Shown here in pieces: positions 10,195 to 58,297 of a DNA stretch of 64,000 bases. The stretch spans positions 434,001-498,000 of the forward strand of contig BLLK01000051.1 of the NCBI GenBank assembly GCA_021927905.1. The letters are read 5' to 3'. Both the position numbers and the translations under genes were made by a program. Numbering within the stretch: the stretch's first letter is position 1; every line of letters begins with the position of its first letter. The notes under the pieces are model-generated. The model had not been told where the DNA came from and made no database searches. It saw only the letters and a program-made list of their open reading frames with translations. Source of the stretch: Chaetoceros tenuissimus. Its lineage: Eukaryota > Bacillariophyta > Thalassiosirophyceae > Chaetocerotales > Chaetocerotaceae.

Positions 10195-11643
10195 TTATGC
10201 CTCGTTCCTGAATCCAGGCACGCGAACTTTGTTGTAGTGAATTCTGGGATATAGCTCCAAAGAAGATATTACTGATGGTAAGCTTTCCCCATACTCATTA
10301 TTTGATAAGATGCCAAGATTATCGTTCGAACTGTAATTAGCATCAATATCATTGAATATTTCATTAGCTAATTCATGTGGTTGTAGTCTTCTATCTTCAA
10401 CGCCAAGTGGTATATTCTCTATTTGTTCCGGAGGTTCCTGATGCTCACTTTCTTCCGAATCTCTCAAGGTACGATCATTTGGAACCTCCCCACCATTTTG
10501 AAGAACCAAATAAAAGGCGTGAAACCAACAATATTCTGGTTGCAATTGGCGTAGAAACTTTATTGCTGGCCTTGTAAAGACAAGAATATTGATTATCCCA
10601 GTGCTTGGATAGAGGATTGTAATGAGATAGTAGATTACTGGACTCATATCTTTGATGACCAATTTCCCGAGGAGCATGCCAAAACTTGAAATATAGACAT
10701 AGCCAGCATTGCAAACAATGAATACACCAACAAAGAGAAGTGCTTGCGTCATTGTTGTTCGCAAATAGAGAATGCGTAGTCTTTCAGCTCGTTGCTTCAA
10801 TATATTGTTTCGTAATGTTACTGCTACTTCTCCTTCTTGTTGTCTTGGATTTGTTTGAGGAGTTGATGGGTATCCTGACAAAATGCGGTACTTCTTATTT
10901 CTACTACATACATGAAAGATGATACATGCCATAAACGCTATGATGAGCGATAGACAAATGACAAAAATAGCAAAAATAACAAACATAACACCCGTCGTTA
11001 GTTCTGGGTTTTCACATTCTCCAAATATTTCCGGATGGGCATTACAACCTGTCGGGCTTAAGACAGGTCCACAATTCGCTCCGCTTGGAGCAGGATTGGT
11101 TGTACCCAATGCTTGCGTAACAACCACAAAAAGTAATGTGAAAAGACAAATGTATCGATGTATAAGTACTTCCTTGGCCAGAAATTGTGGATCGGTCATT
11201 TTCTTCTTTCCTGTCTTACAACAGTAGAAAAAACATAAGAAAGTTGTGTACATTGGAGACATGATCGAGCCAGCATTCAGCAGCATGCCAGCAAAGGAGC
11301 ATGAAGTATCGTTCCCTCTCCCCCAAGGTGAAAATACTGGATGTTTAGGGATTGCCAGGGGACCAATAGCCAATGAAAATGATAAAAGCATATCAGCTAA
11401 ACACAGACCAAATATGATCCGTCTATATGAATTCTTTGTAAGACCTGATCTTGTTTCATCTCCATTGTTTTGTGTCTTGAATCTTCGTGCCACACTAGCA
11501 GCGACTATGAAGGAAGCGATGAAACTCAAAGTTGAAACAACAACTTGTGTAATGACTCTAGGAGCATTCGTATTCACAAAAGCCGCCTGTTTTGTGCTAT
11601 CTTGTAGTAGCAGTGTTGAATTGTTGTTGAAATTTTCGTCCAT
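10195..11643 (-). CDS. Seven-transmembrane GPCR-like receptor 1
   Basis: Intronless, 482 residues. Seven hydrophobic segments are visible. TM1 lies around VVVSTLSFIASFIVAASVA, and TM2 contains IIFGLCLADMLLSFSLAIG. TM3 follows a conserved Cys, and TM4 contains LFTLLFVVVTQALG. TM5 follows a Cys-rich second extracellular loop (NCGPVLSPTGCNAHPEIFGEC). TM6 contains TQALLFVGVFIVC, and TM7 ends in NILVFTRPAIKFL. The last motif fits the end of TM7 in receptors of the cAMP-receptor/rhodopsin-like type. An N-terminal Asn-rich stretch could be glycosylated, and the C-tail is about 100 residues, acidic and Ser-rich. The ligand is unknown. Two relatives lie at 12.0-13.8 and 19.0-20.9 kb. It converges with the protease homologue (173 bp between stops). 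Confidence 0.88.
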   Translation of the reverse strand: MDENFNNNSTLLLQDSTKQAAFVNTNAPRVITQVVVSTLSFIASFIVAASVARRFKTQNNGDETRSGLTKNSYRRIIFGLCLADMLLSFSLAIGPLAIPKHPVFSPWGRGNDTSCSFAGMLLNAGSIMSPMYTTFLCFFYCCKTGKKKMTDPQFLAKEVLIHRYICLFTLLFVVVTQALGTTNPAPSGANCGPVLSPTGCNAHPEIFGECENPELTTGVMFVIFAIFVICLSLIIAFMACIIFHVCSRNKKYRILSGYPSTPQTNPRQQEGEVAVTLRNNILKQRAERLRILYLRTTMTQALLFVGVFIVCNAGYVYISSFGMLLGKLVIKDMSPVIYYLITILYPSTGIINILVFTRPAIKFLRQLQPEYCWFHAFYLVLQNGGEVPNDRTLRDSEESEHQEPPEQIENIPLGVEDRRLQPHELANEIFNDIDANYSSNDNLGILSNNEYGESLPSVISSLELYPRIHYNKVRVPGFRNEA

Positions 11644-12011: not shown

Positions 12012-13799
12012 TTACATTCCATCAGAACTACTTGGCAACTGAAGAGGAAAGCAATTGTACCATTCATACTCTTCTTGCTTCAACTTTGTACCAATTTTCT
12101 TGCTTATTACACTTGATTCTTGTTGGTCACTCGATTTCGCTGACATTTCATGAGATACGAATCTACAATCTTCAGAAGATTCAATTCCACTTGGTATGAA
12201 TATTCCTTCAACACCATACGCCACACTATCAATTTGCTCTGCTTGATCTTGGTCATTCTCACTTTTCAAGAGATGCTTTGGTACTTCTCCTCCATTTCGA
12301 AGAATCAGATACAACAAAGTACAAAAAGAGTATTCTGGTTTTTCTTGCCTGAGAAAAACTATTCCAGGTCTAGTGAAGACTAGAATATTGATGATTCCAG
12401 TGCTGCAATAGAGCACAGTTCCACCATAGTAAATGACAGGGTTCATCTCGGCAATAGTTAGCTTTTTTCGCATCACACTGAAAGCCGTAACGTAGACATA
12501 CGTAGCGTTGGTTACAACAAAGGCTATAACAAAAAGAAATGCCTGTGTCAGAGCTGTTGTCAAATAGAGTCTTCGAAGTCTTTCTGCTTTCTCTCTCAAA
12601 GCGAAGGATCGTCGCTCTTCTTCTTCTTGCTCTTGATCCTCTGGTGGAGTAGAAGTGCTAGATCTCAACTGCGCTCCGCTTATGCTCTGATATTTCTTAC
12701 TTTCTCTACAGACATGAATAGTGACAAAAGTCATGAAGATAACTATGAAAACGAGAGAGATTAGGAAAATACCAAACACAATACCATTGATTGTAGTCAC
12801 GGATTCTACGTTTTTGCATTCTCCAAATATTTCCGGATGGGCATTACAACCTGTCGGGCTTAAGACGGGTCCACAATGCGCTCCTGAAGGAGCTGGATTA
12901 ATTGATCCTGTATATAAAGAAACAGACAAGACAATTATTGTCAAACACCAAATACATGAATGAATCGCGACTTCTCTTGTCTTGGGAATGGAGTCTCTTC
13001 TATCTGACAATTTTCTCTTGTAGTAATAGCATAGAAAAGTACTGTAGTAGGAACGACTGTTGAAGATCACGAAAAAGAAATGTAAAGGTCTTGTAGTCAA
13101 TATAATACTTACGTGTACATCGGAGACATGATAGATCCAGCCCCTAAACTTAAACCAGCAAAGTTACATGACATAGTATTTCCTTTTCCCCAAGGTGAAA
13201 ATACTTCATGTTTAGGAACAGCTAGCGGACCTATTTGTATCAAGAAAATGAGATGAGCGAAGGTATCATAGTATTACAAGCAAGTGAGAAAGGATAGGAA
13301 CATGTTAACAAACGTGAATCAAACTATGTTCCTTCAAAGATGGATGTAGTAATTGAATATTGTCCCTTACCTATTGCGAGTGAATAGGATAGAAACATAT
13401 CAGCCAAGCACAAGCCGAAGATGATCCTGAGAAGAGCGAAGGTATCATAGTCCAAGCAAGTGAGAAAGGATAGAAACATGTTAGCAAACGTGAATAAACT
13501 ACTATGTTCCTTCAAAGATGGCTGTAATGATTGAATATTGTCCCTTACCGTCTATACGGATTCTTAAATAGTAGGCCCAGTCCTCCTCCTCCACTATTTG
13601 TTTCAGTGTTTGCATCCTCATTTTTATTGCCTTTTCCTCCTCCTGCTACACTGATCGAAACCAGCAGGGAGGCAAGAAAACTCAAGATCGAAACTACAAC
13701 TTGTACTATCACCCTAGGGCAATGATTATTTGTATTGACTAAAGTTGCATCAGTGGTTGCTTGTGTTGCTTGAATTATTATCGAAGAGGGACCCGTCAT
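12012..13799 (-). CDS. Seven-transmembrane GPCR-like receptor 2 with twin introns
   Basis: Four exons on the minus strand: 13799-13549, 13426-13371, 13230-13113 and 13041-12012. They join in frame to give 484 residues. The frame extends upstream only with a GTG, so the ATG at 13799 is taken as the start. The protein follows receptor 1 throughout: YRRIIFGLCLADMFLSYSLAIG in TM2, the loop HCGPVLSPTGCNAHPEIFGEC, and NILVFTRPGIVFLR at the end of TM7. Receptor 1 has none of these three introns. Introns 1 (122 bp) and 2 (140 bp) are nearly the same sequence and flank a 56-bp exon; intron 3 (71 bp) is unrelated. The C-tail is acidic and Ser-rich. Splice junctions were placed by phase and by alignment to receptor 1, so the model is fairly firm. 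Confidence 0.85.
13231..13370 (-). repeat. Intron 2 of receptor 2, copy of intron 1
   Basis: 140-bp intron starting GTAAGGGACAATATTCAAT and ending ATACAAATAG. Most of its length matches intron 1 (13427-13548) with only a scatter of differences; intron 2 has about 19 extra bases before its acceptor. Both also hold a segment resembling part of the small exon between them (ATGTTYCTATCC followed by a TTCTCACTTGC-like run). Confidence 0.85.
13427..13548 (-). repeat. Intron 1 of receptor 2, copy of intron 2
   Basis: 122-bp intron with the same donor and the same internal sequence as intron 2, ending CTTCTCAG. The coding sequence on both sides is unrelated to that around intron 2, so the intron itself, not a whole exon-intron block, is duplicated. 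Confidence 0.85.
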
Positions 13800-14140
13800 C
13801 CTCGTGCATTTAGCGAACAAATCAAGTATTTTTAGTAGTGCTAGTAGAACTTTCACTCTCGTATCCAGAATACTATAAAAGATGCTTGAACTGTTGATTG
13901 CTTTATTGCTATATTTTCAATCTGATGTATCAATTTTGATGCTAGAGTAGAGAAAATGGTTCTCGTGTTGTATGCTGCATATATGTGTCTTCAAAAGCGG
14001 TCCTGTGAATAATAAGTACGAGGTAAGAAGTGTTCCGTATTTGTCGGAGGATGGTAGGGGAATTGTCTGAATAGATTGGACACGTGTCAAGAGACGCAGT
14101 AATACTATTTTACTATTCATTTTTGGAATCATTATTTTTT

Positions 14141-19005: not shown

Positions 19006-20874
19006 TTATTCTTTGGTGAATGGGTTAGGTTTGTTATCCGAAGCATCTCGCAGTGTTTGTGTATTTTCTTGGCTTTCGGTTGCATCCCGTTGCACCTGAG
19101 AAATTGGAGCATATTCACTGATATCGTCATAAGATTCCCCTTTCCGTCCTTCACTTTCGACACTGCTCACAAAAAATCTGTTTCCTGTGCAAAACTTAAC
19201 TCTGTGAGAACTACCTGTGGAAGGATCAATTAAGTTTCCACAGTAATTCCTTTTAGAGGTCACTGGATCAGCAGACTCTTGTGCATCTGAAAGTCGCGGA
19301 GCATCTTGACTGATATCATTGTAAATATTCGAATACTCTTGTAGAGCATCGCTTGGAGCTTTCTGCGATGGGTTCAAAGACTCTTGTGCTACTGAAAGTC
19401 GCGGAGCATCTTGACTGATATCATTGTAAATATTCGAATACTCTTGTAGAGCATCGCTTGGAGCTTTCTGCGATGGGTTCAAATCTTTTGCCACCCCAAA
19501 TTTCAAACTTTTATCATTGAAATAAGATTTACTATCACCACCAGCATCGTTATCAATTTGACTACCGGTTGTAGGCCGAGCCACTGTAGCAGGAGTAGGA
19601 TCACCACCATTCTTGAAAACAATCCAAAAGGCTCCAAGCCAACTCAAATGTGGTGACCGAGTCTTTTCCACTTTTGTAGCAGGTCGAGTAAAAATCAAAA
19701 TATTAAATATCCCCCCAAGTGGAAATAGAGCTTGAATAAAAAAGAAGAATACTAGAGGAGGCTGCTTCTCTAGGTAAAACATTAGGTTCCCAACTGCAAA
19801 TAGGACGTAGGTAGCCATGAATGCTAGACTATAGAGTAAAACTTGAAGCATCATTTCTCGCTTGTATGATTTAGCCAATCGCTGTTGTACTATCATTTTG
19901 CGTCTATTACTAGTGGTACTTCGCAGCTGTAACTGTTCCTTTCCTGACGACTATGAATACAAAAATGCAAAGGATGAAAAAATGTATAATATCAACATTC
20001 CATTAGAAAGAAATATTGAATCACTCACTGTTTTCCGAAGTTTACCGCTAGCATCATCATTACTTTGAACTTTTGCTTCTTCTTCCTTTTCAACATTTAT
20101 TTGCTGTGATTCCGCCATGTCTTCACAATGAGTACTCGCAGGTGGTGAAATATTGGAGGAAGAAAAAAGTTTCTCTCGAAAGGCAATTTCATACGAGAGT
20201 TTGGAAAGAAAAGCAAGTATCAAAAATAAACAAAGAAATGGCAGAATAGTAGTAGTCATCATGCCAATCACCATGGCAGCATCTGCATTCGCGTCACAGT
20301 CCACATTATCGGTGTATCTACATCGGATCGGTGTAGCCGAGTACAAACACACGGTTCCAGATGTAGCAGTATTAATCGCATCCTTTGCCATGGCTGCAAT
20401 ATTCACTGCAATCATGGAAAGTATAATGAATCTATGCATGTGTCTCTCCACTTTGAATTGAAATTGTTCATCGGTCATGTTGAGATGCAGTTTACAAAAG
20501 TAGTAAATGGAAAGAGCGGCAGAATACATTGGTACCCATGTTGATCCAAATGTAAATAAAAGACCGTCAAAGGTACATGTATTATCATTCCCGACGGACC
20601 ATATAGCCTGCCTCACTGATTTCGGAGGGGAGAAGGGTCCAATCAATAATCCTAGTGATTGAAGGATATCACTGATACTGATGCAAAATATGATTCTTCT
20701 ATAAGGAGTTGCGAATCTATCCTTTTTCCTCCATATCATGACGGCAAGAGCACTCGACGATACAAAGGATATCGTTGAGGAAGCTATCTGTATGGAAGCA
20801 GCAGCCTTCCAAATTTTAATTTTCTTTTTCATCGCTGCTAGGAGCGCAGCTTGCTTTTCCGGGGTCATGCTCAT
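19006..20874 (-). CDS. Seven-transmembrane GPCR-like receptor 3
   Basis: Two exons, 20874-20029 and 19950-19006, join in phase 0 over a 78-bp intron (GTGAGT...TTCATAG), giving 596 residues. It belongs to the same family as receptors 1 and 2: TPYRRIIFCISISDILQSLGLLIGP in TM2, a Cys before TM3, and FNILIFTRPATKV after TM7. Sequence and intron position are clearly more distant. The second extracellular loop keeps Cys (VCLYSATPIRCRYTDNVDC) but not the loop sequence shared by the other two. The C-tail contains a 35-residue unit (…NPSQKAPSDALQEYSNIYND…) repeated twice in tandem. The C-tail repeats could be docking or phosphorylation sites; this is inference. Confidence 0.87.
19274..19483 (-). repeat. 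105-bp tandem coding repeat in receptor 3 tail
   Basis: Two head-to-tail copies, 19274-19378 and 19379-19483, differ by only a few bases, clustered near one spot (GCATCT against GCTACT). They encode two 35-residue units of the C-tail and keep the frame. Near identity at silent sites points to a recent duplication. Confidence 0.9.
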
Positions 20875-27814: not shown

Positions 27815-28195
27815 TTTTACTTTTTATGTCAGCATCTTTCAATCTGTTCTTTTGAGATGCAGTGATTGCCTGTCAGTCTGATGTCGAAATGAATCATTCA
27901 TCATCGCAAAAGGTAACATCAGTCCATGAAAATCTTTTTTGGCTATTTCTCGCTCGTTTTCTTTGCGTAATTTTCAATTTCCTTTGCAACGGTTACAAGA
28001 TTCTTTATATTTATTACAAGCTATTACTAGCATGATTTATGCTTCGTGAAATCATCGTTGTCGCTACTTGGCTACTTCTTACTTTCACTTCAGTGCCTTT
28101 CCAATGACTAGTGAAAGGTGTCTCTAGCTAAATTATCATTCTCTTGACATTGCTTGAGAGCCATCCATCTTCTTTTTCATATGAACCAAGAAAAG
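27815..28195. other. Intergenic up to the transposon
   Basis: 381 bp holding the promoter side of LRR protein B, then AT-rich sequence ending in AAGAAAAG directly before the first transposon copy. No gene is seen. Confidence 0.4.
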
Positions 28196-29327
28196 GGCAA
28201 CCGACCCACAGGTGTGGAGTTTTTTTAAAATATAAATATGATTTTAGCTTTATGACACGAGTCGTCGAAAATTGTCACTGAAAAATATTTCAACGTACGG
28301 GAGGGAGGCCATGACAAAAACAATTGAACTCATGGAATCTTTCTTCGATGTTGATTCAATCAACAAGATACCATGAGCCAATGCATTTTATTTTACGATA
28401 TATCTATATTATGCACAAATCTTTTCTCCTCAAAATGACTTGACTGGGCTGTCGGTATTCACAATCTCCTCGAGAAACAATCTGACAATGCCACACATGA
28501 CGACAAGTGAGTCTAGCTTTTTGTATCCACCAACACCAATAGAGAGAATCAGTAGTAGACAGCAGTGGCTTTTAAGCAGAAAGGTTCCTGATAGAGTCCA
28601 TATCTTTCCTCCGTATCTTTCCTTGTGCAACTAGGATCAGAGGTCATATCTTCATGCTAGCATCTCGTATCCTTCTAGGTCTCTGAAATATGGACACGAC
28701 GAAATCATTTTAGGAGCATATTCAGTAACTGTTCATGAATGTTATGCATTGCATAGCGGAAGAGAGTCGGAAAAAGCGACTTGGATTATGCAATGAGTGA
28801 GAAGTTCGTTATGTTCATGTACTCGCTGTTGTTCAATGGCATTTCAATTTTTGACCGTTGCTGTACTTCTCATAAAAATCTCTGGAATAGGCCTAGAAGC
28901 GGAAAAAATGAAGGAAAAGAAATAATGAGTGTTTCATGATTACATGCTCTTATTATTTGATTTAAAAATAGCACTGGTGAGTGTCACAATACCGCTGTGG
29001 TTGGTTTCTCGGTCTTCTTGTAGAACCGCCTCTACATCCATCCGATTTACCTTTCTTACAATTCTTACATTTCCTTTCTTGACGAACACAAATCTTATCT
29101 GGTCCACGTACTGGTAGCACCAAATTTCTTTCATGCCGAGGTGCTTGATATGAAATATGATTCGCTGCTTGAATCATATTCACTTGATATAAACCAGCAA
29201 ATTGCGGAAATGCTGGATGAACAAAATTGAGATGATTTACTCTTTTCATTGTCTGTCGCTCTTTAGGTGCATCCTGTTTCTGGATCGTTCCAAAGTTATC
29301 CGTAACAAACTTATCCAGAGTAGATTC

Positions 29328-30926
29328 TTAGGCATTAACATCCTCTGTATTCATGTCTACATCAGAAGACGCTTCTGCTGTTGGCTTTTCATATCCTTGT
29401 TTTTGATGAGCAGTAAGTATATTAACCGAATGTAAGAGCGTCTCGTCCCTAGCCATCAATCTTGAAGCTTTTTGCAATGTTTCATAATGTTTACGACGCT
29501 TGCGATAGATGCGATTGTACGCTTTAGTCTTGGGAAAGACCTTCACGCCATCGACATGTTTTAAAATAAGCCGAGTCATTAGCTCATCAACTTTGTCCAT
29601 GTTCTTATGAATCTTGGTTGCTTCGGTAAACAACTTTTGATACAAGCACTTACATTCGTATTCTGTCGACCATGGTCTTGGGTGTACTGCCATTCCACAT
29701 GCTTTAGATAAGTATTTTGCCGTAGGTGTCATTTTATCATCTCTAACCTTGACAGTGTCATTTATTTCTTTTTCGAGTTCTTTACCAACGAGTGATACGA
29801 AACCAAACTTTTCTTCTGTAGGTGCAAAGTCAGAAGCACAAATCCACGTTGGATACAAAAGCTCATTATGATTCCGTTCATACACCTTAACATGGGCATC
29901 TATCATCCATGTATTATAATGTCCAATCTTAGGAAAGTTCGAAAGATTCTTTTGACATGCACGCAAATTTGAGTGATGTCGATGTTCTGCTAATATTGCA
30001 TCAGCTATTTCTGGCCCACATGCCGACGGTCCAAATGCATTATTAATATGTGAATGTGATCCCTCTAGAGCATTTGTATCTCGTTTACATCTCAATAGCG
30101 GAACTTGTAGGAGCAAATCATACTTGATTTCACCTTTATTTGTCAACTCAAATTGATAAAGATTCAATCCAGGGGGATCAGAGTAATATCCATGTAACAC
30201 TTCCTTCAAAATAGTATTTGCTTTTACCCAATCACCATCACTAAACAATGGTTTTCCTGTATCTACATCACACTTTGAGCCAAATATTTCAAAGACATTT
30301 CGAATTCTCCAATACAACCGTGATGGGGGTAGACAAATCCTTCGACATCTTTTTGAAAAGTATTTACGTTTGAAATATCTACAAATATGGTTGAATTCAA
30401 TCCCTAAATTTTGGCATATGTATTCAGCTGTATCTTTACGAATCCAGAAATTATGCATTTTTAAATAGGAAAGTAACCACTTTTCTTCGCTTTTAGCGAG
30501 TCTTTCAACTATGCTTTTTGCATATTTATGCATGACACTAATTTTGATATCATCGAAGTAGCTTGAATCTTCTTCAAAAGAAGAGCCATCACCATCGTCC
30601 TCACCATCATCTTGATTTAATTCGTCTTCAGTTCTAGTGCTTTCTTTCACATCGTAGTAGTCATCATTATTTGTATGAGTTGGTCTACGGACTTCATAGT
30701 TTGCATCACGTCTACGGAACTCATTCCACATTCTCTCTATCATCACTCGAGGTGATTCAATAATATTCCTAATGGTTCCATGCTGAACAAAATTAGCTAG
30801 ACCTCTAGCAAGTACTCTTGTCTCAGTCGCTTTCTTATAGGTTTTTGCTGCCTTTGCTGCTGACGTAGTTTTGCCCTTGTTTGAGTTTAGGGTTTTAGAA
30901 ACATATTTACGTTTGGATTTTGCCAT
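29328..30926 (-). CDS. Transposase-like protein, shortened by a stop (copy 1)
   Basis: 532 residues, colinear with the 654-residue protein of copy 2. A single base change (GAA to TAA, codon 533) ends it early. Downstream the remaining ~120 codons, including the Cys-rich tail, are intact but out of the product. It keeps the block SDPPGLNLYQF and the motif DTNALEGSHSHINNAFG. If the Cys-rich tail is needed for DNA binding or folding, this copy would not make a working protein. Only this change and one Asp/Glu swap separate it from copy 2. Confidence 0.85.
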   Translation of the reverse strand: MAKSKRKYVSKTLNSNKGKTTSAAKAAKTYKKATETRVLARGLANFVQHGTIRNIIESPRVMIERMWNEFRRRDANYEVRRPTHTNNDDYYDVKESTRTEDELNQDDGEDDGDGSSFEEDSSYFDDIKISVMHKYAKSIVERLAKSEEKWLLSYLKMHNFWIRKDTAEYICQNLGIEFNHICRYFKRKYFSKRCRRICLPPSRLYWRIRNVFEIFGSKCDVDTGKPLFSDGDWVKANTILKEVLHGYYSDPPGLNLYQFELTNKGEIKYDLLLQVPLLRCKRDTNALEGSHSHINNAFGPSACGPEIADAILAEHRHHSNLRACQKNLSNFPKIGHYNTWMIDAHVKVYERNHNELLYPTWICASDFAPTEEKFGFVSLVGKELEKEINDTVKVRDDKMTPTAKYLSKACGMAVHPRPWSTEYECKCLYQKLFTEATKIHKNMDKVDELMTRLILKHVDGVKVFPKTKAYNRIYRKRRKHYETLQKASRLMARDETLLHSVNILTAHQKQGYEKPTAEASSDVDMNTEDVNA

Positions 30927-31109
30927 GTTATAGTAAATAAAGACAAGTGAAATGCACTAAAGGTATCAGGTGTTAATTAGGTTCAGTCAATTTCAGTGTT
31001 CATCTCGTCGTGGCTCAAGGTGCAGCACCTTTTAGTACATACTATATTAGTACCTACACGTTGAATTAAAATAACACTGAAATAGCTATTAAAAAGCAGG
31101 TGTCTACAA

Positions 31110-31126
31110 GCTTTTTAATAGCTATT
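31110..31126. repeat. Right arm of 17-bp subterminal hairpin (copy 1)
   Basis: Pairs perfectly with 31081-31097 (AATAGCTATTAAAAAGC) across a 12-base loop. It lies upstream of the transposase start and inside the element's right end. The same hairpin is at 34071-34116 in copy 2. Confidence 0.85.
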
Positions 31127-31951
31127 TTGACATTATTTACATATTTTTAAAAGGGTCCACACCAGCAGGCCGGTTGCCAAGAAAGGCAACCGACCCACAG
31201 GTGTGGAGTTTTTTTAAAATATAAATATGATTTTAGCTTTATGACACGAGTCGTCGAAAATTGTCACTGAAAAATATTTCAACGTACGGGAGGGAGGCCA
31301 TGACAAAAACAATTGAACTCATGGAATCTTTCTTCGATGTTGATTCAATCAACAAGATACCATGAGCCAATGCATTTTATTTTACGATATATCTATATTA
31401 TGCACAAATCTTTTCTCCTCAAAATGACTTGACTGGGCTGTCGGTATTCACAATCTCCTCGAGAAACAATCTGACAATGCCACACATGACGACAAGTGAG
31501 TCTAGCTTTTTGTATCCACCAACACCAATAGAGAGAATCAGTAGTAGACAGCAGTGGCTTTTAAGCAGAAAGGTTCCTGATAGAGTCCATATCTTTCCTC
31601 CGTATCTTTCCTTGTGCAACTAGGATCAGAGGTCATATCTTCATGCTAGCATCTCGTATCCTTCTAGGTCTCTGAAATATGGACACGACGAAATCATTTT
31701 AGGAGCATATTCAGTAACTGTTCATGAATGTTATGCATTGCATAGCGGAAGAGAGTCGGAAAAAGCGACTTGGATTATGCAATGAGTGAGAAGTTCGTTA
31801 TGTTCATGTACTCGCTGTTGTTCAATGGCATTTCAATTTTTGACCGTTGCTGTACTTCTCATAAAAATCTCTGGAATAGGCCTAGAAGCGGAAAAAAATG
31901 AAGGAAAAGAAATAATGAGTGTTTCATGATTACATGCTCTTATTATTTGAT

Positions 31952-33916
31952 TTAAAAATAGCACTGGTGAGTGTCACAATACCGCTGTGGTTGGTTTCTC
32001 GGTCTTCTTGTAGAACCGCCTCTACATCCATCCGATTTACCTTTCTTACAATTCTTACATTTCCTTTCTTGACGAACACAAATCTTATCTGGTCCACGTA
32101 CTGGTAGCACCAAATTTCTTTCATGCCGAGGTGCTTGATATGAAATATGATTCGCTGCTTGAATCATATTCACTTGATATAAACCAGCAAATTGCGGAAA
32201 TGCTGGATGAACAAAATTGAGATGATTTACTCTTTTCATTGTCTGTCGCTCTTTAGGTGCATCCTGTTTCTGGATCGTTCCAAAGTTATCCGTAACAAAC
32301 TTATCCAGAGTAGATTCTTCGGCATTAACATCCTCTGTATTCATGTCTACATCAGAAGACGCTTCTGCTGTTGGCTTTTCATATCCTTGTTTTTGATGAG
32401 CAGTAAGTATATTAACCGAATGTAAGAGCGTCTCGTCCCTAGCCATCAATCTTGAAGCTTTTTGCAATGTTTCATAATGTTTACGACGCTTGCGATAGAT
32501 GCGATTGTACGCTTTAGTCTTGGGAAAGACCTTCACGCCATCGACATGTTTTAAAATAAGCCGAGTCATTAGCTCATCAACTTTGTCCATGTTCTTATGA
32601 ATCTTGGTTGCTTCGGTAAACAACTTTTGATACAAGCACTTACATTCGTATTCTGTCGACCATGGTCTTGGGTGTACTGCCATTCCACATGCTTTAGATA
32701 AGTATTTTGCCGTAGGTGTCATTTTATCATCTCTAACCTTGACAGTGTCATTTATTTCTTTTTCGAGTTCTTTACCAACGAGTGATACGAAACCAAACTT
32801 TTCTTCTGTAGGTGCAAAGTCAGAAGCACAAATCCACGTTGGATACAAAAGCTCATTATGATTCCGTTCATACACCTTAACATGGGCATCTATCATCCAT
32901 GTATTATAATGTCCAATCTTAGGAAAGTTCGAAAGATTCTTTTGACATGCACGCAAATTTGAGTGATGTCGATGTTCTGCTAATATTGCATCAGCTATTT
33001 CTGGCCCACATGCCGACGGTCCAAATGCATTATTAATATGTGAATGTGATCCCTCTAGAGCATTTGTATCTCGTTTACATCTCAATAGCGGAACTTGTAG
33101 GAGCAAATCATACTTGATTTCACCTTTATTTGTCAACTCAAATTGATAAAGATTCAATCCAGGGGGATCAGAGTAATATCCATGTAACACTTCCTTCAAA
33201 ATAGTATTTGCTTTTACCCAATCACCATCACTAAACAATGGTTTTCCTGTATCTACATCACACTTTGAGCCAAATATTTCAAAGACATTTCGAATTCTCC
33301 AATACAACCGTGATGGGGGTAGACAAATCCTTCGACATCTTTTTGAAAAGTATTTACGTTTGAAATATCTACAAATATGGTTGAATTCAATCCCTAAATT
33401 TTGGCATATGTATTCAGCTGTATCTTTACGAATCCAGAAATTATGCATTTTTAAATAGGAAAGTAACCACTTTTCTTCGCTTTTAGCGAGTCTTTCAACT
33501 ATGCTTTTTGCATATTTATGCATGACACTAATTTTGATATCATCGAAGTAGCTTGAATCTTCTTCAAAAGAAGAGCCATCACCATCGTCATCACCATCAT
33601 CTTGATTTAATTCGTCTTCAGTTCTAGTGCTTTCTTTCACATCGTAGTAGTCATCATTATTTGTATGAGTTGGTCTACGGACTTCATAGTTTGCATCACG
33701 TCTACGGAACTCATTCCACATTCTCTCTATCATCACTCGAGGTGATTCAATAATATTCCTAATGGTTCCATGCTGAACAAAATTAGCTAGACCTCTAGCA
33801 AGTACTCTTGTCTCAGTCGCTTTCTTATAGGTTTTTGCTGCCTTTGCTGCTGACGTAGTTTTGCCCTTGTTTGAGTTTAGGGTTTTAGAAACATATTTAC
33901 GTTTGGATTTTGCCAT
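31952..33916 (-). CDS. Transposase-like protein, full length (copy 2)
   Basis: 654 residues, single exon. It has a Lys-rich N-terminus, an acidic stretch (~85-125), and a helical region with CRYFKRKYFSKRCRRICLPP. Then come GKPLFSDGDWVKANTILKEV, SDPPGLNLYQF and DTNALEGSHSHINNAFG...ADAILAEHRHHSNL. The last blocks match, from memory, the C-terminal half of transposase-like proteins in fungi and algae that read SDPPG and RGTNxLEGxxH. Those proteins have an upstream RNase H-like DDE region that I cannot find here, so a full catalytic triad is not shown. The C-terminus is a zinc-finger-like array (KCKNCKKGKSDGCRGG...YCDTHQC). The protein probably acts on its own element ends, perhaps with help from an autonomous relative. 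Confidence 0.82.
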   Translation of the reverse strand: MAKSKRKYVSKTLNSNKGKTTSAAKAAKTYKKATETRVLARGLANFVQHGTIRNIIESPRVMIERMWNEFRRRDANYEVRRPTHTNNDDYYDVKESTRTEDELNQDDGDDDGDGSSFEEDSSYFDDIKISVMHKYAKSIVERLAKSEEKWLLSYLKMHNFWIRKDTAEYICQNLGIEFNHICRYFKRKYFSKRCRRICLPPSRLYWRIRNVFEIFGSKCDVDTGKPLFSDGDWVKANTILKEVLHGYYSDPPGLNLYQFELTNKGEIKYDLLLQVPLLRCKRDTNALEGSHSHINNAFGPSACGPEIADAILAEHRHHSNLRACQKNLSNFPKIGHYNTWMIDAHVKVYERNHNELLYPTWICASDFAPTEEKFGFVSLVGKELEKEINDTVKVRDDKMTPTAKYLSKACGMAVHPRPWSTEYECKCLYQKLFTEATKIHKNMDKVDELMTRLILKHVDGVKVFPKTKAYNRIYRKRRKHYETLQKASRLMARDETLLHSVNILTAHQKQGYEKPTAEASSDVDMNTEDVNAEESTLDKFVTDNFGTIQKQDAPKERQTMKRVNHLNFVHPAFPQFAGLYQVNMIQAANHISYQAPRHERNLVLPVRGPDKICVRQERKCKNCKKGKSDGCRGGSTRRPRNQPQRYCDTHQCYF

Positions 33917-34070
33917 GTTATAGTAAATAAAGACAAGTGAAATGCACTAAAGGTATCAGGTGTTAATTAGGTTCAGTCAATTTCAGTGTTCATCTCGTCG
34001 TGGCTCAAGGTGCAGCACCTTTTAGTACATACTATATTAGTACCTACACGTTGAATTAAAATAACACTGA

Positions 34071-34116
34071 AATAGCTATTAAAAAGCAGGTGTCTACAAG
34101 CTTTTTAATAGCTATT
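34071..34116. repeat. 17-bp subterminal hairpin (copy 2)
   Basis: Perfect inverted repeat, arms 34071-34087 and 34100-34116, loop of 12 bases. It sits between the right terminal repeat and the transposase start, so it may be a binding site or part of the promoter. Confidence 0.85.
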
Positions 34117-34246
34117 TTGACATTATTTACATATTTTTAAAAGGGTCCACACCAGCAGGCCGGTTGCCAAGAAAATTGCCAAAGATTAATTCAATGAATG
34201 TATCTAATTGCTGTGTACTGACAATAGAGAACAGTAATACCAAAAG

Positions 34247-48076: not shown

Positions 48077-48621
48077 TTTACTTAAATATCTTGAACCAAA
48101 AACATAATTACGTATACTGAAAAAGAACAATCACGACGAACTGGGGCGGGTCAAAATAAACCTTTTTGGATTGTCTTGGGACTTGAAATTCCAATAAGAA
48201 AGTTCTCTGCTAAGCTCGTTCTGCAACTCTAACAAAAAACAGTTGAGTCCATCCTCTAAAAGTAAGGCCCGTCTTTGACAGACACATTATTTCTATGAAT
48301 CAATCTAAGTATGCTGTAAATATCTTCGCCATGAAAGTGACTCTAGCTAGAACAAGTATAGATTTACGTTTTAACAAAACGGAGCAATTGAATATAAGAA
48401 AACAGTCTTTATTTACAAGAATACCATTGGAAAAAATGCTCGAAAAGTAAAATCACAAAATCTTTTCGTCCTCCTAGATTGCTTAAAAAGCGAGCGAACT
48501 TCTTCTTGCCATGTATCCAATTGAATAATACCTACCTATGCGATTGCCACGACGTGCTTTAATATGTTTACCTTGATGAATTCGAACTTGTAGATGCGAC
48601 TAGCAATGATCTATTCAATAC
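48077..48621. repeat. 3' flank of cassette A, duplicated at 52366-52820
   Basis: From about 48121 this stretch matches 52366-52800 almost base for base (for example GGACTTGAAATTCCAATAAG and the phrase TCTGCTAAGCTCGTTCTGCA in both). It lies downstream of the family gene in each case. No gene within it. Confidence 0.85.
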
Positions 48622-56209: not shown

Positions 56210-57684
56210 TGTTGGGGTTTAGTTGAATGTAGGTTGCTGTCTGATGTCGATTCAATCGATTCAATTCAATAAAATGGCTGCTTGAAATACTATTTGCGAA
56301 TGAAAGTAAAACAGCTCTTGTCGTCGCTTGTCGTTGCTTGTTGTTGCTTGTCGTCGCTTGCTTTATATTTATTGAATTCCTGTGTATCGTCGTTGCTGTG
56401 TTGCCTCTCTTGTTCGTCTCATTGTTTGCTCCTGGCGGTTCCTCGTTTGGTTTAGGCGGAGTATCGGGTTCACGTGGCTTGGCAAGACTCCAATTTTTAT
56501 TCTTGCAAGATTACTTCAGGTTGATAGTTTTATAGATGTCAATATTAATGATTTAGTAGTTAAAAGGAATGTCAAATTCCTATTTTAGAGAGAAAATAGA
56601 CGTTGTTACTTTTTGCAACAGTTTTGAATCGGATGTGGAAACGGAATTATGGAATGAATGGTCACGGTGTTACTGGTTGGTCGGAAACTGTTGCTAGTTG
56701 GTCATTGGTCATGCTTGTATGCTTGTATGCTTGTTAATGTATCTAGTAGAGAAAGAGAGAGAGAGAGTTTACGTGCATCTAATATTTCTTTTCATTCGTT
56801 AATGTATTAGTTTAAAAGAGGAATGGAAATGACTTGGAATTGGATAGCTTGTATGTGCAAATCCTTCGTTACTGTTCTTGTGTGACATACTCCTCGTTTG
56901 ACCTTCTCACATTGAGAATGAATAGTATAGAGATATCTATTGGAATGGAATGGAAAATCAATCTATTACGATACTACTCGTAGAAGATCTATCTGGCTTT
57001 TGTTGAATTGTGAAAGTGTTCATGAGACTCATTTTCTACTGGTGGGATACATTACAGTCAATCAGAAATGGTGGGGGAATTCAGCAGTTTGTTAGTTGAG
57101 TTCGATGAGGAGTTTGAGGAAAAGATATGTAATTAACAAGAAGACGAGTAGACGAATTAAGATGATTGTGTGTTGTCATCAAGCGATGAGATGTAACCCT
57201 CTGTTTCCTTACGTATGTTAATTTTGATCAAGAAACTTCTAGAGAGCATTAAATTATCTCCACAAAGCATGAAAACGCAATACAAAGGGAAAAAGATACA
57301 TTTGCAAAGGTAGTGTCAATTAATCGTTCTTTTCGTTAAGGAACAGCCAGAAAGTTGTTTTCAAGGTCGGTCATACTTTGCTTAAATCCTCATTGAAACC
57401 TGGTTTCCGAAGAAAACCTTCATTCGATTGATTGACTGTGAAGAAAGTGGAATATGGTTCCAAGAATCTCTTGCCAATTCGTCTCATTTCTGCTCTGGGT
57501 CTATGAGATTTACTGTCATGTGCAACGGGATGATGAAAAACAATAAGATAAAGAATCAGTTCAAACACTCTTGGAATGTTTTCTGGATATAGTTGCGAGA
57601 ACGAAAATCATCTTCTCGAGGAAAAGAGGCAAAAAATCAATGCAAAAGAAGTTTACAATTCTCCTCTGTCCAAGATGGGAAAAA

Positions 57685-57841
57685 CTGACCCAATTTTTGA
57701 ACCTATCTTTGAAACAAGTTGCTTCGTTTCTCCGGTTCTGACCCAATCTTTGAACCAATGTCCAAGATCACTGACCCAATTTTTGAACCTATCTTTGAAA
57801 CAAGTTGCTCCGGTTCTCCGGTTCTGACCCAATCTTTGAAC
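57685..57841. repeat. 85-86 bp tandem repeat, about two copies
   Basis: Copies start at 57685 and 57771. Each holds CTGACCCAATTTTTGAACCT, a run of TCTTTGAAACAAGTTGCT, CCGGTTCTGACCC and AATCTTTGAACC, so the inner phrase also recurs at 57738 and 57823. Confidence 0.85.
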
Positions 57842-58297
57842 CCTTGTTACTTTGAAGGATAAGTAGGGAAAGAGGGACTCTGAACTGAAGTTTTGACTAT
57901 TGGTGATCCCAAGGACGATGCTAGATAGTATAAAAAGACATTTTAGAGAAAGGAACTGCCTTGTATGGAATTTGCATCCAGTGAATGTTTTGAAAATGAG
58001 CCTTGGTTTTGCATTTTCCAACCTATAAAAATGACTGGTCTTGATTTATACGAGTGATGTTGCATCGAGTTCACTTCTTATTCGAATTCTTAACACTTAT
58101 AAACATTATCGAAGCAATCCAAGCAAAACACAGCATACGACATGAATTTTCCCAATCCTTTTATGGCATGGTCCACACCTTCGCTCTATTCCACTATAGT
58201 TTTGAATAGTATAGAAAAGAATAAGCGTACTAAGAAACGAATAAGAAATAGAAGAAGAAAGAATACAAGACATGCTAGAGGCTTTCGAAATCCAGGT

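Follow-up and report, generated by a model that had tools for sequence, protein, structure and literature searches.

The origin of new spliceosomal introns is a long-standing open question. Among the described systems that lie closest to the locus reported here are the nearly identical introns (NIIs) of Oikopleura dioica, of which PMC3879977 lists four same-gene pairs among about 75,000 introns, and for which reverse splicing had been suggested as the origin (Denoeud et al. 2010, as related in PMC3879977). A second system is formed by the introners and introner-like elements, which are near-identical introns found between unrelated flanks in many genes (PMC3879977, PMC4457414 and PMC9860276). 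According to the main text of PMC9860276, the size of introner families ranges from 5 copies per genome to over 2,000, and target-site duplications (TSDs) or inverted ends are not present in all of them (49/130 and 72/177 where determinable). The same main text uses as a criterion that, at each end of each intron, similarity starts no further than five bases into the exon or ten bases into the intron, and its survey was confined to families of at least four introns, with intron pairs from genes with similar proteins removed; as we understand these rules, they would leave out a same-gene pair of the kind described below. A third system consists of the neointrons of Daphnia pulex, which are attributed to break repair and carry short direct repeats at their ends (PMC4202315). 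PMC3879977 describes newly gained introns within a species as highly similar, with Daphnia as the exception. Finally, a tandem genomic duplication model, in which a local copy arises within one gene, is mentioned in PMC3629103.

The sequence that we analysed is a single stretch of 64 kb (the window), the minus strand of which carries two tandem receptor-like genes, R1 and R2. R1 (10195..11643) is a single, intronless open frame of 482 aa. Its tandem paralogue R2 has a coding sequence running from the start codon at 13799 to 12012 and, as judged from the frame, contains three introns, all of them GT-AG. Alignment of the spliced frame to the intronless R1 delineates exon 1 (13549..13799), intron 1 (13427..13548; 122 nt), exon 2 (13371..13426; 56 nt), intron 2 (13231..13370; 140 nt), exon 3 (13113..13230), intron 3 (13042..13112; 71 nt) and exon 4 (12012..13041), which includes the stop codon. 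The spliced R2 protein has 484 aa, with 239 of 465 aligned residues identical to R1, and its residues 86-350 match the Pfam 7tm_1 model with an E of 1.2e-5 at a score of 25.3 bits, which is below the Pfam cut-off of 30.5; R1 gives a weak match only (E between 0.001 and 0.1). R1 and R2 are likely to be receptors on the strength of these weak matches, which do not make the assignment firm. When the R1/R2 profile was searched against the PDB, two sequences were recovered, both FAP276-like at an E of 0.013, and these were taken as chance. The divergence of the two genes by the NG86 method (dN 0.45, dS 1.63; 58 of 106 fourfold sites differ) looks like that of a pair under purifying selection. One 96-bp part (R1 11002-11097, R2 12804-12899) is 88.5% identical, against 65 to 80% in the other matched parts, and of the 25 codons in the best run of conserved residues 22 are identical, a value reached in 27 of 5000 permutations; this tract suggests gene conversion between the tandem paralogues. 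Relatives of R1 and R2 that might serve as an outgroup were sought in viral_contigs, where none of the 35 pattern stretches recovered with R1 and R2 was a relative.

Both introns 1 and 2 appear as exact gaps in the comparison with R1, which is uninterrupted at the site of intron 1 (AGACGGATCAT) as well as at that of intron 2 (GCTATTGGTCCC), and has the counterpart of exon 2 joined to those of exons 1 and 3. This agrees with the first-pass annotation, which had described the neighbouring paralogue as intronless at either place. Intron 1 splits an arginine codon between CG and G, and the 56-nt exon between the two introns encodes IIFGLCLADMFLSYSLAI, which is hydrophobic by inspection. Removal of introns 1 and 2 restores the R2 frame and its alignment to R1; when intron 1 is kept, intron 2 is kept, or the 56-nt exon is skipped, a stop follows soon after the change. 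From the frame and the comparison with R1 we infer that both would be spliced out. The unspliced R2 frame holding exon 4 gave no 7tm_1 match at an E of 0.001; given the weak match of R1 to the same model, the 7tm_1 match is a weak witness for the splicing of R2. Scanning positions 13000-13800 against Rfam recovered no family at the gathering score, and the predicted folding of introns 1 and 2 is at the level of shuffled sequences (z 0.50 and 0.14).

The two introns are strikingly alike. Intron 1 reads GTAAGGGACA...CTCTTCTCAG and intron 2 reads GTAAGGGACA...ATACAAATAG, and their global alignment places 112 of 120 aligned bases in identity, with 8 differences and indels of 2, 3 and 17 nt. The local score of the pair is 182, compared to a best value of 31 among 2000 shuffles. 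The likeness starts one base before the GT, at a shared G, and runs to the AG, and the exons on either side show no such likeness, agreeing at 5 of 30 bases upstream and 9 of 30 downstream. Thus, the earlier description of two adjacent near-identical introns at 13231-13548, which share the donor and nearly their whole length between unrelated exons, was accurate in each of these respects, and its coordinates coincide exactly with the stretch bounded by the 3' end of intron 2 and the 5' end of intron 1. The largest difference lies next to the acceptor: intron 1 ends in CTCAG, and intron 2 has 17 extra bases (ATTTTCTTGATACAAAT; 13233..13249) between the matching CTC and AG. Intron 3 is unrelated to the other two, its similarity to introns 1 and 2 being equalled by 1730 and 235 of 2000 shuffles, respectively. 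An assembly artefact was considered as a source of the pair and set aside by inference, since 8 base differences and three indels separate the copies.

The divergence between introns 1 and 2 (K = 0.070 +/- 0.023) is far below the dS of 1.63 between R1 and R2, and the two introns therefore cannot both be unaltered and older than the R1/R2 split. This age gap implies that the R2 lineage underwent at least one event of copying or overwriting once the genes had split, and recent copying or overwriting between the two introns is accordingly well supported, to the point that we consider it very nearly certain. Probably, one intron is a fairly recent copy of the other. R1 lacks introns, and its tandem neighbour R2 has three; a cDNA-mediated loss from R1 is possible. 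Given that R1 is without all three of the R2 introns, including the unrelated intron 3, it may have lost introns, and their absence from R1 is alone not proof of gain. One of introns 1 and 2 may therefore be old. Hence, of the proposal that the pair reflects recent intron gain by copying, the recent copying holds up, and the gain of both introns does not follow. Either intron 1 or intron 2 could have been the source.

The reading that we favour is that one R2 intron was copied to a second place within R2, with RNA-mediated transposition as the first choice of route; we hold this tentatively, with a probability of roughly 0.45, and regard it as unproven. Under this scheme an excised R2 intron would have been reverse-spliced into R2's own transcript, the transcript with the extra intron would have been reverse-transcribed, and the resulting cDNA would have recombined back into the R2 gene; later, one of the copies would have been altered by the 17-nt indel beside the acceptor. 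An RNA route predicts that the copied unit is the intron itself, that the flanks are unrelated and without a flanking repeat, and that the source lies in the same transcript. The pair fits these predictions with two exceptions, the 17 nt by which the acceptor sides differ and a 7-nt repeat at intron 2. Same-gene copying as such is favoured by the finding of no further copy in the window, and by flanking repeats and ends that are unlike those of one transposon family. Several observations weigh against the RNA step. An exact copy should match to the last base, yet the 17-nt difference abuts the acceptor; the 7-nt repeat at intron 2 suits a staggered break equally well; and intron 3 is retained beside the pair, so that a cDNA tract by which it would have been removed has left no mark. 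Furthermore, since only insertions with two working splice sites survive selection, ends that coincide with those of the intron say little in favour of an RNA intermediate. With the Oikopleura NIIs, as presented in PMC3879977, the R2 pair shares the presence of two near-identical introns within one gene, recognised here from the frame; it differs from them in that its members flank a 56-nt exon, in having an intronless tandem paralogue at hand, and in the 17-nt indel at the acceptor. By this analogy, the pair would be one case of a rare and already described kind of event.

The foremost alternative is that introns 1 and 2 are copies of an introner, a mobile element that seeds introns in many genes of the genome. 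Near-identical introns at different places with unrelated flanks are the very appearance of introners, and the similarity of the pair reaches the 5' border in the manner that the PMC9860276 criterion describes; on the 3' side the 17-nt length difference stands beside the AG. Intron 2 is bounded by a direct repeat of 7 nt, AATAGGT, with its left copy at 13369..13375 and its right copy at 13229..13235 in the junction print-out, and this resembles a TSD. The longest repeat flanking intron 1 is GG, at most 2 nt, so that a consistent TSD across the two introns is absent. Terminal inverted repeats were likewise at the level of chance in both introns, with ungapped matches equalled by 195 and 1061 of 2000 shuffles and local ones by 4022 and 4305 of 5000; a 10-of-14 match between the inverted ends of intron 1 was rejected as not significant on the first of these counts. 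The flanking repeats of unequal length, together with inverted ends and folding at the shuffle level, thus speak against a mobile element, although families without TSDs or inverted ends are on record (main text of PMC9860276).

The copy number within the window also weighs against an introner. The 17-nt donor end has no occurrence with up to 3 mismatches in the 64 kb beyond the two in R2, and a blastn search of 13195-13560 against the window recovered, besides R1, the intron pair and a resemblance to exon 2 that is described below, only matches with an E of at least 0.8. Two patterns drawn from the introns, a 20-mer and a 21-mer, had no exact match in viral_contigs, and the 21-mer had none in genome_contigs; these collections are viral and prokaryotic and carry little information for a eukaryote. 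On Poisson expectations, zero further copies in 64 kb would exclude only densities above about 47 per Mb. Known introners lie in many genes, in contrast to the R2 pair, which consists of two copies in one gene as counted within 64 kb (compare PMC3879977, PMC4457414 and PMC9860276). Among the titles listed by a literature search on introners and diatoms, none concerned diatom introners, and the main text of PMC9860276 has 0 mentions of diatom, stramenopile, Bacillario, Thalassiosira or Fragilariopsis; diatom introners may still have been reported. We consider an introner origin of the R2 pair doubtful.

The window contains several other repeats. A 3-kb direct tandem duplication (28186-31184 and 31177-34174; 99.8% identity) is either very recent or an assembly effect. 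Between 48122 and 55630 there are direct repeats, about 69 to 97% identical, between apparent tandem gene copies. Four conserved 72-nt stretches (at 48465, 51782, 52707 and 55042) share a minus-strand open frame; they were considered as a second intron-like repeat family and rejected, as they probably represent an exon of tandem genes. The open frame 19006-19950 contains a repeat with a 105-bp period (19273-19494; 94% identical), and the open frame 57653-58045 holds two 73 bp copies with 97% identity, 86 bp apart (57684-57842).

The AATAGGT repeat is central to a further alternative, namely copying at the DNA level, whereby a patch copied from intron 1 would have mended a staggered double-strand break at AATAGGT, and both new splice sites would stem from the duplication of that heptamer. 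That intron 2 has the repeat at either end is as this model expects, and the copied body would join at the GGT that is common to both places; the model could also explain the 17 nt of intron 2 that are missing from intron 1. The neointrons of Daphnia pulex carry comparable repeats of 4 to 12 bp (PMC4202315), and the short direct repeat at the ends of intron 2 constitutes the likeness to them, with the difference that the R2 intron is a copy of a neighbouring intron. Only 3-4 of the 7 bases of the repeat are informative, as the AG and GT are needed for splicing and the initial GT of exon 3 is also found in R1. Moreover, at either end of intron 1 the shared stretch stops within one base of the border; a random patch would not have to stop there, although selection would favour such an outcome. 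Repair of a break is, in our estimation, an unlikely source of the second intron.

Alternatively, introns 1 and 2 could both be old and have been lost from R1 through cDNA, their likeness being due to gene conversion between the introns. R1 is without all three R2 introns, as is expected of a cDNA-converted gene, and a conversion-like tract exists elsewhere in R1 and R2 (the 22 of 25 identical codons noted above, with 27 of 5000 permutations as good). Conversion, however, requires prior similarity, and it does not predict a likeness that covers the introns in full and breaks off at the splice sites; we regard this history as decidedly improbable. Duplication in tandem, be it of an intron together with an exon or of a piece of exon carrying AGGT, finds some footing in the exon-2-like stretch within the introns and in its local copy within one gene resembles the model mentioned in PMC3629103, but it can be practically dismissed, in that no other intron part matched exons by blastn, the R2 exon between the copies lies outside any duplicated unit as that model would have it, and its simple form was rejected on two counts, exon 2 being no copy of its neighbours (the comparisons with the end of exon 1 and the start of exon 3 are equalled by 1542 and 1320 of 2000 shuffles) and R1 having the counterparts of exons 1 to 3 in one uninterrupted piece. 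On the same two observations, the simple form of the first-pass suggestion that a partial local duplication had created the splice sites is not supported.

The resemblance to exon 2, which the first-pass annotation had reported for both introns, is present, and is moderate and tested post hoc. In intron 1 it spans 33 nt with one 1-nt gap (13456..13488; blastn 81.8%, E 0.019 in the window) and in intron 2 it was delineated by local alignment (13280..13303); the part of exon 2 that is resembled, as determined by both methods, is 13376..13407. For intron 1 the match to exon 2, which is on the same strand, was equalled once in 5000 shuffles of the intron and never in 5000 shuffles of the exon; for intron 2 the counts were 15 and 24 of 5000, respectively. 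With the whole R2 CDS as the target, 1 of 300 shuffles scored as well for intron 1 and 16 of 300 for intron 2; with the R1 CDS these values rose to 47 and 213 of 300. Two of the differences between the introns fall in the stretch (window positions 13484/13308 and 13474/13298), and intron 1 agrees with exon 2 at both. The stretch thus resembles R2 more than R1, and may have been left over from the exon of R2 itself. It was chosen post hoc and lies partly within a pyrimidine-rich tract, and the main conclusion on the pair is independent of it. A narrower form of local duplication may apply, with the ancestral intron having acquired a piece of R2 exon 2.

A more far-reaching reading would combine these strands, with the pair as the tip of recently active intron copying, either by an introner family or by frequent same-gene transposition, and the ancestral intron derived in part from R2 exon 2. 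We offer this as a speculation that is more likely wrong than right by a good measure; if true, it would catch an intron that was born from coding sequence and then copied.

At R2, a recently copied intron lies close to the intron that is its likely source and to a paralogue that is uninterrupted, which makes for a directly checkable case of how introns multiply. Same-gene pairs appear to be rare, with the four among about 75,000 Oikopleura introns (PMC3879977) as a measure. The rules of the survey in the main text of PMC9860276 appear to omit same-gene pairs, and local copying may thus be under-counted. Widespread intron gain has been suggested for Thalassiosira pseudonana (PMC3145265), and if the host of R2 is a diatom, as the first-pass annotation assumed, the copying of an intron within R2 would bear on intron gain in that species.
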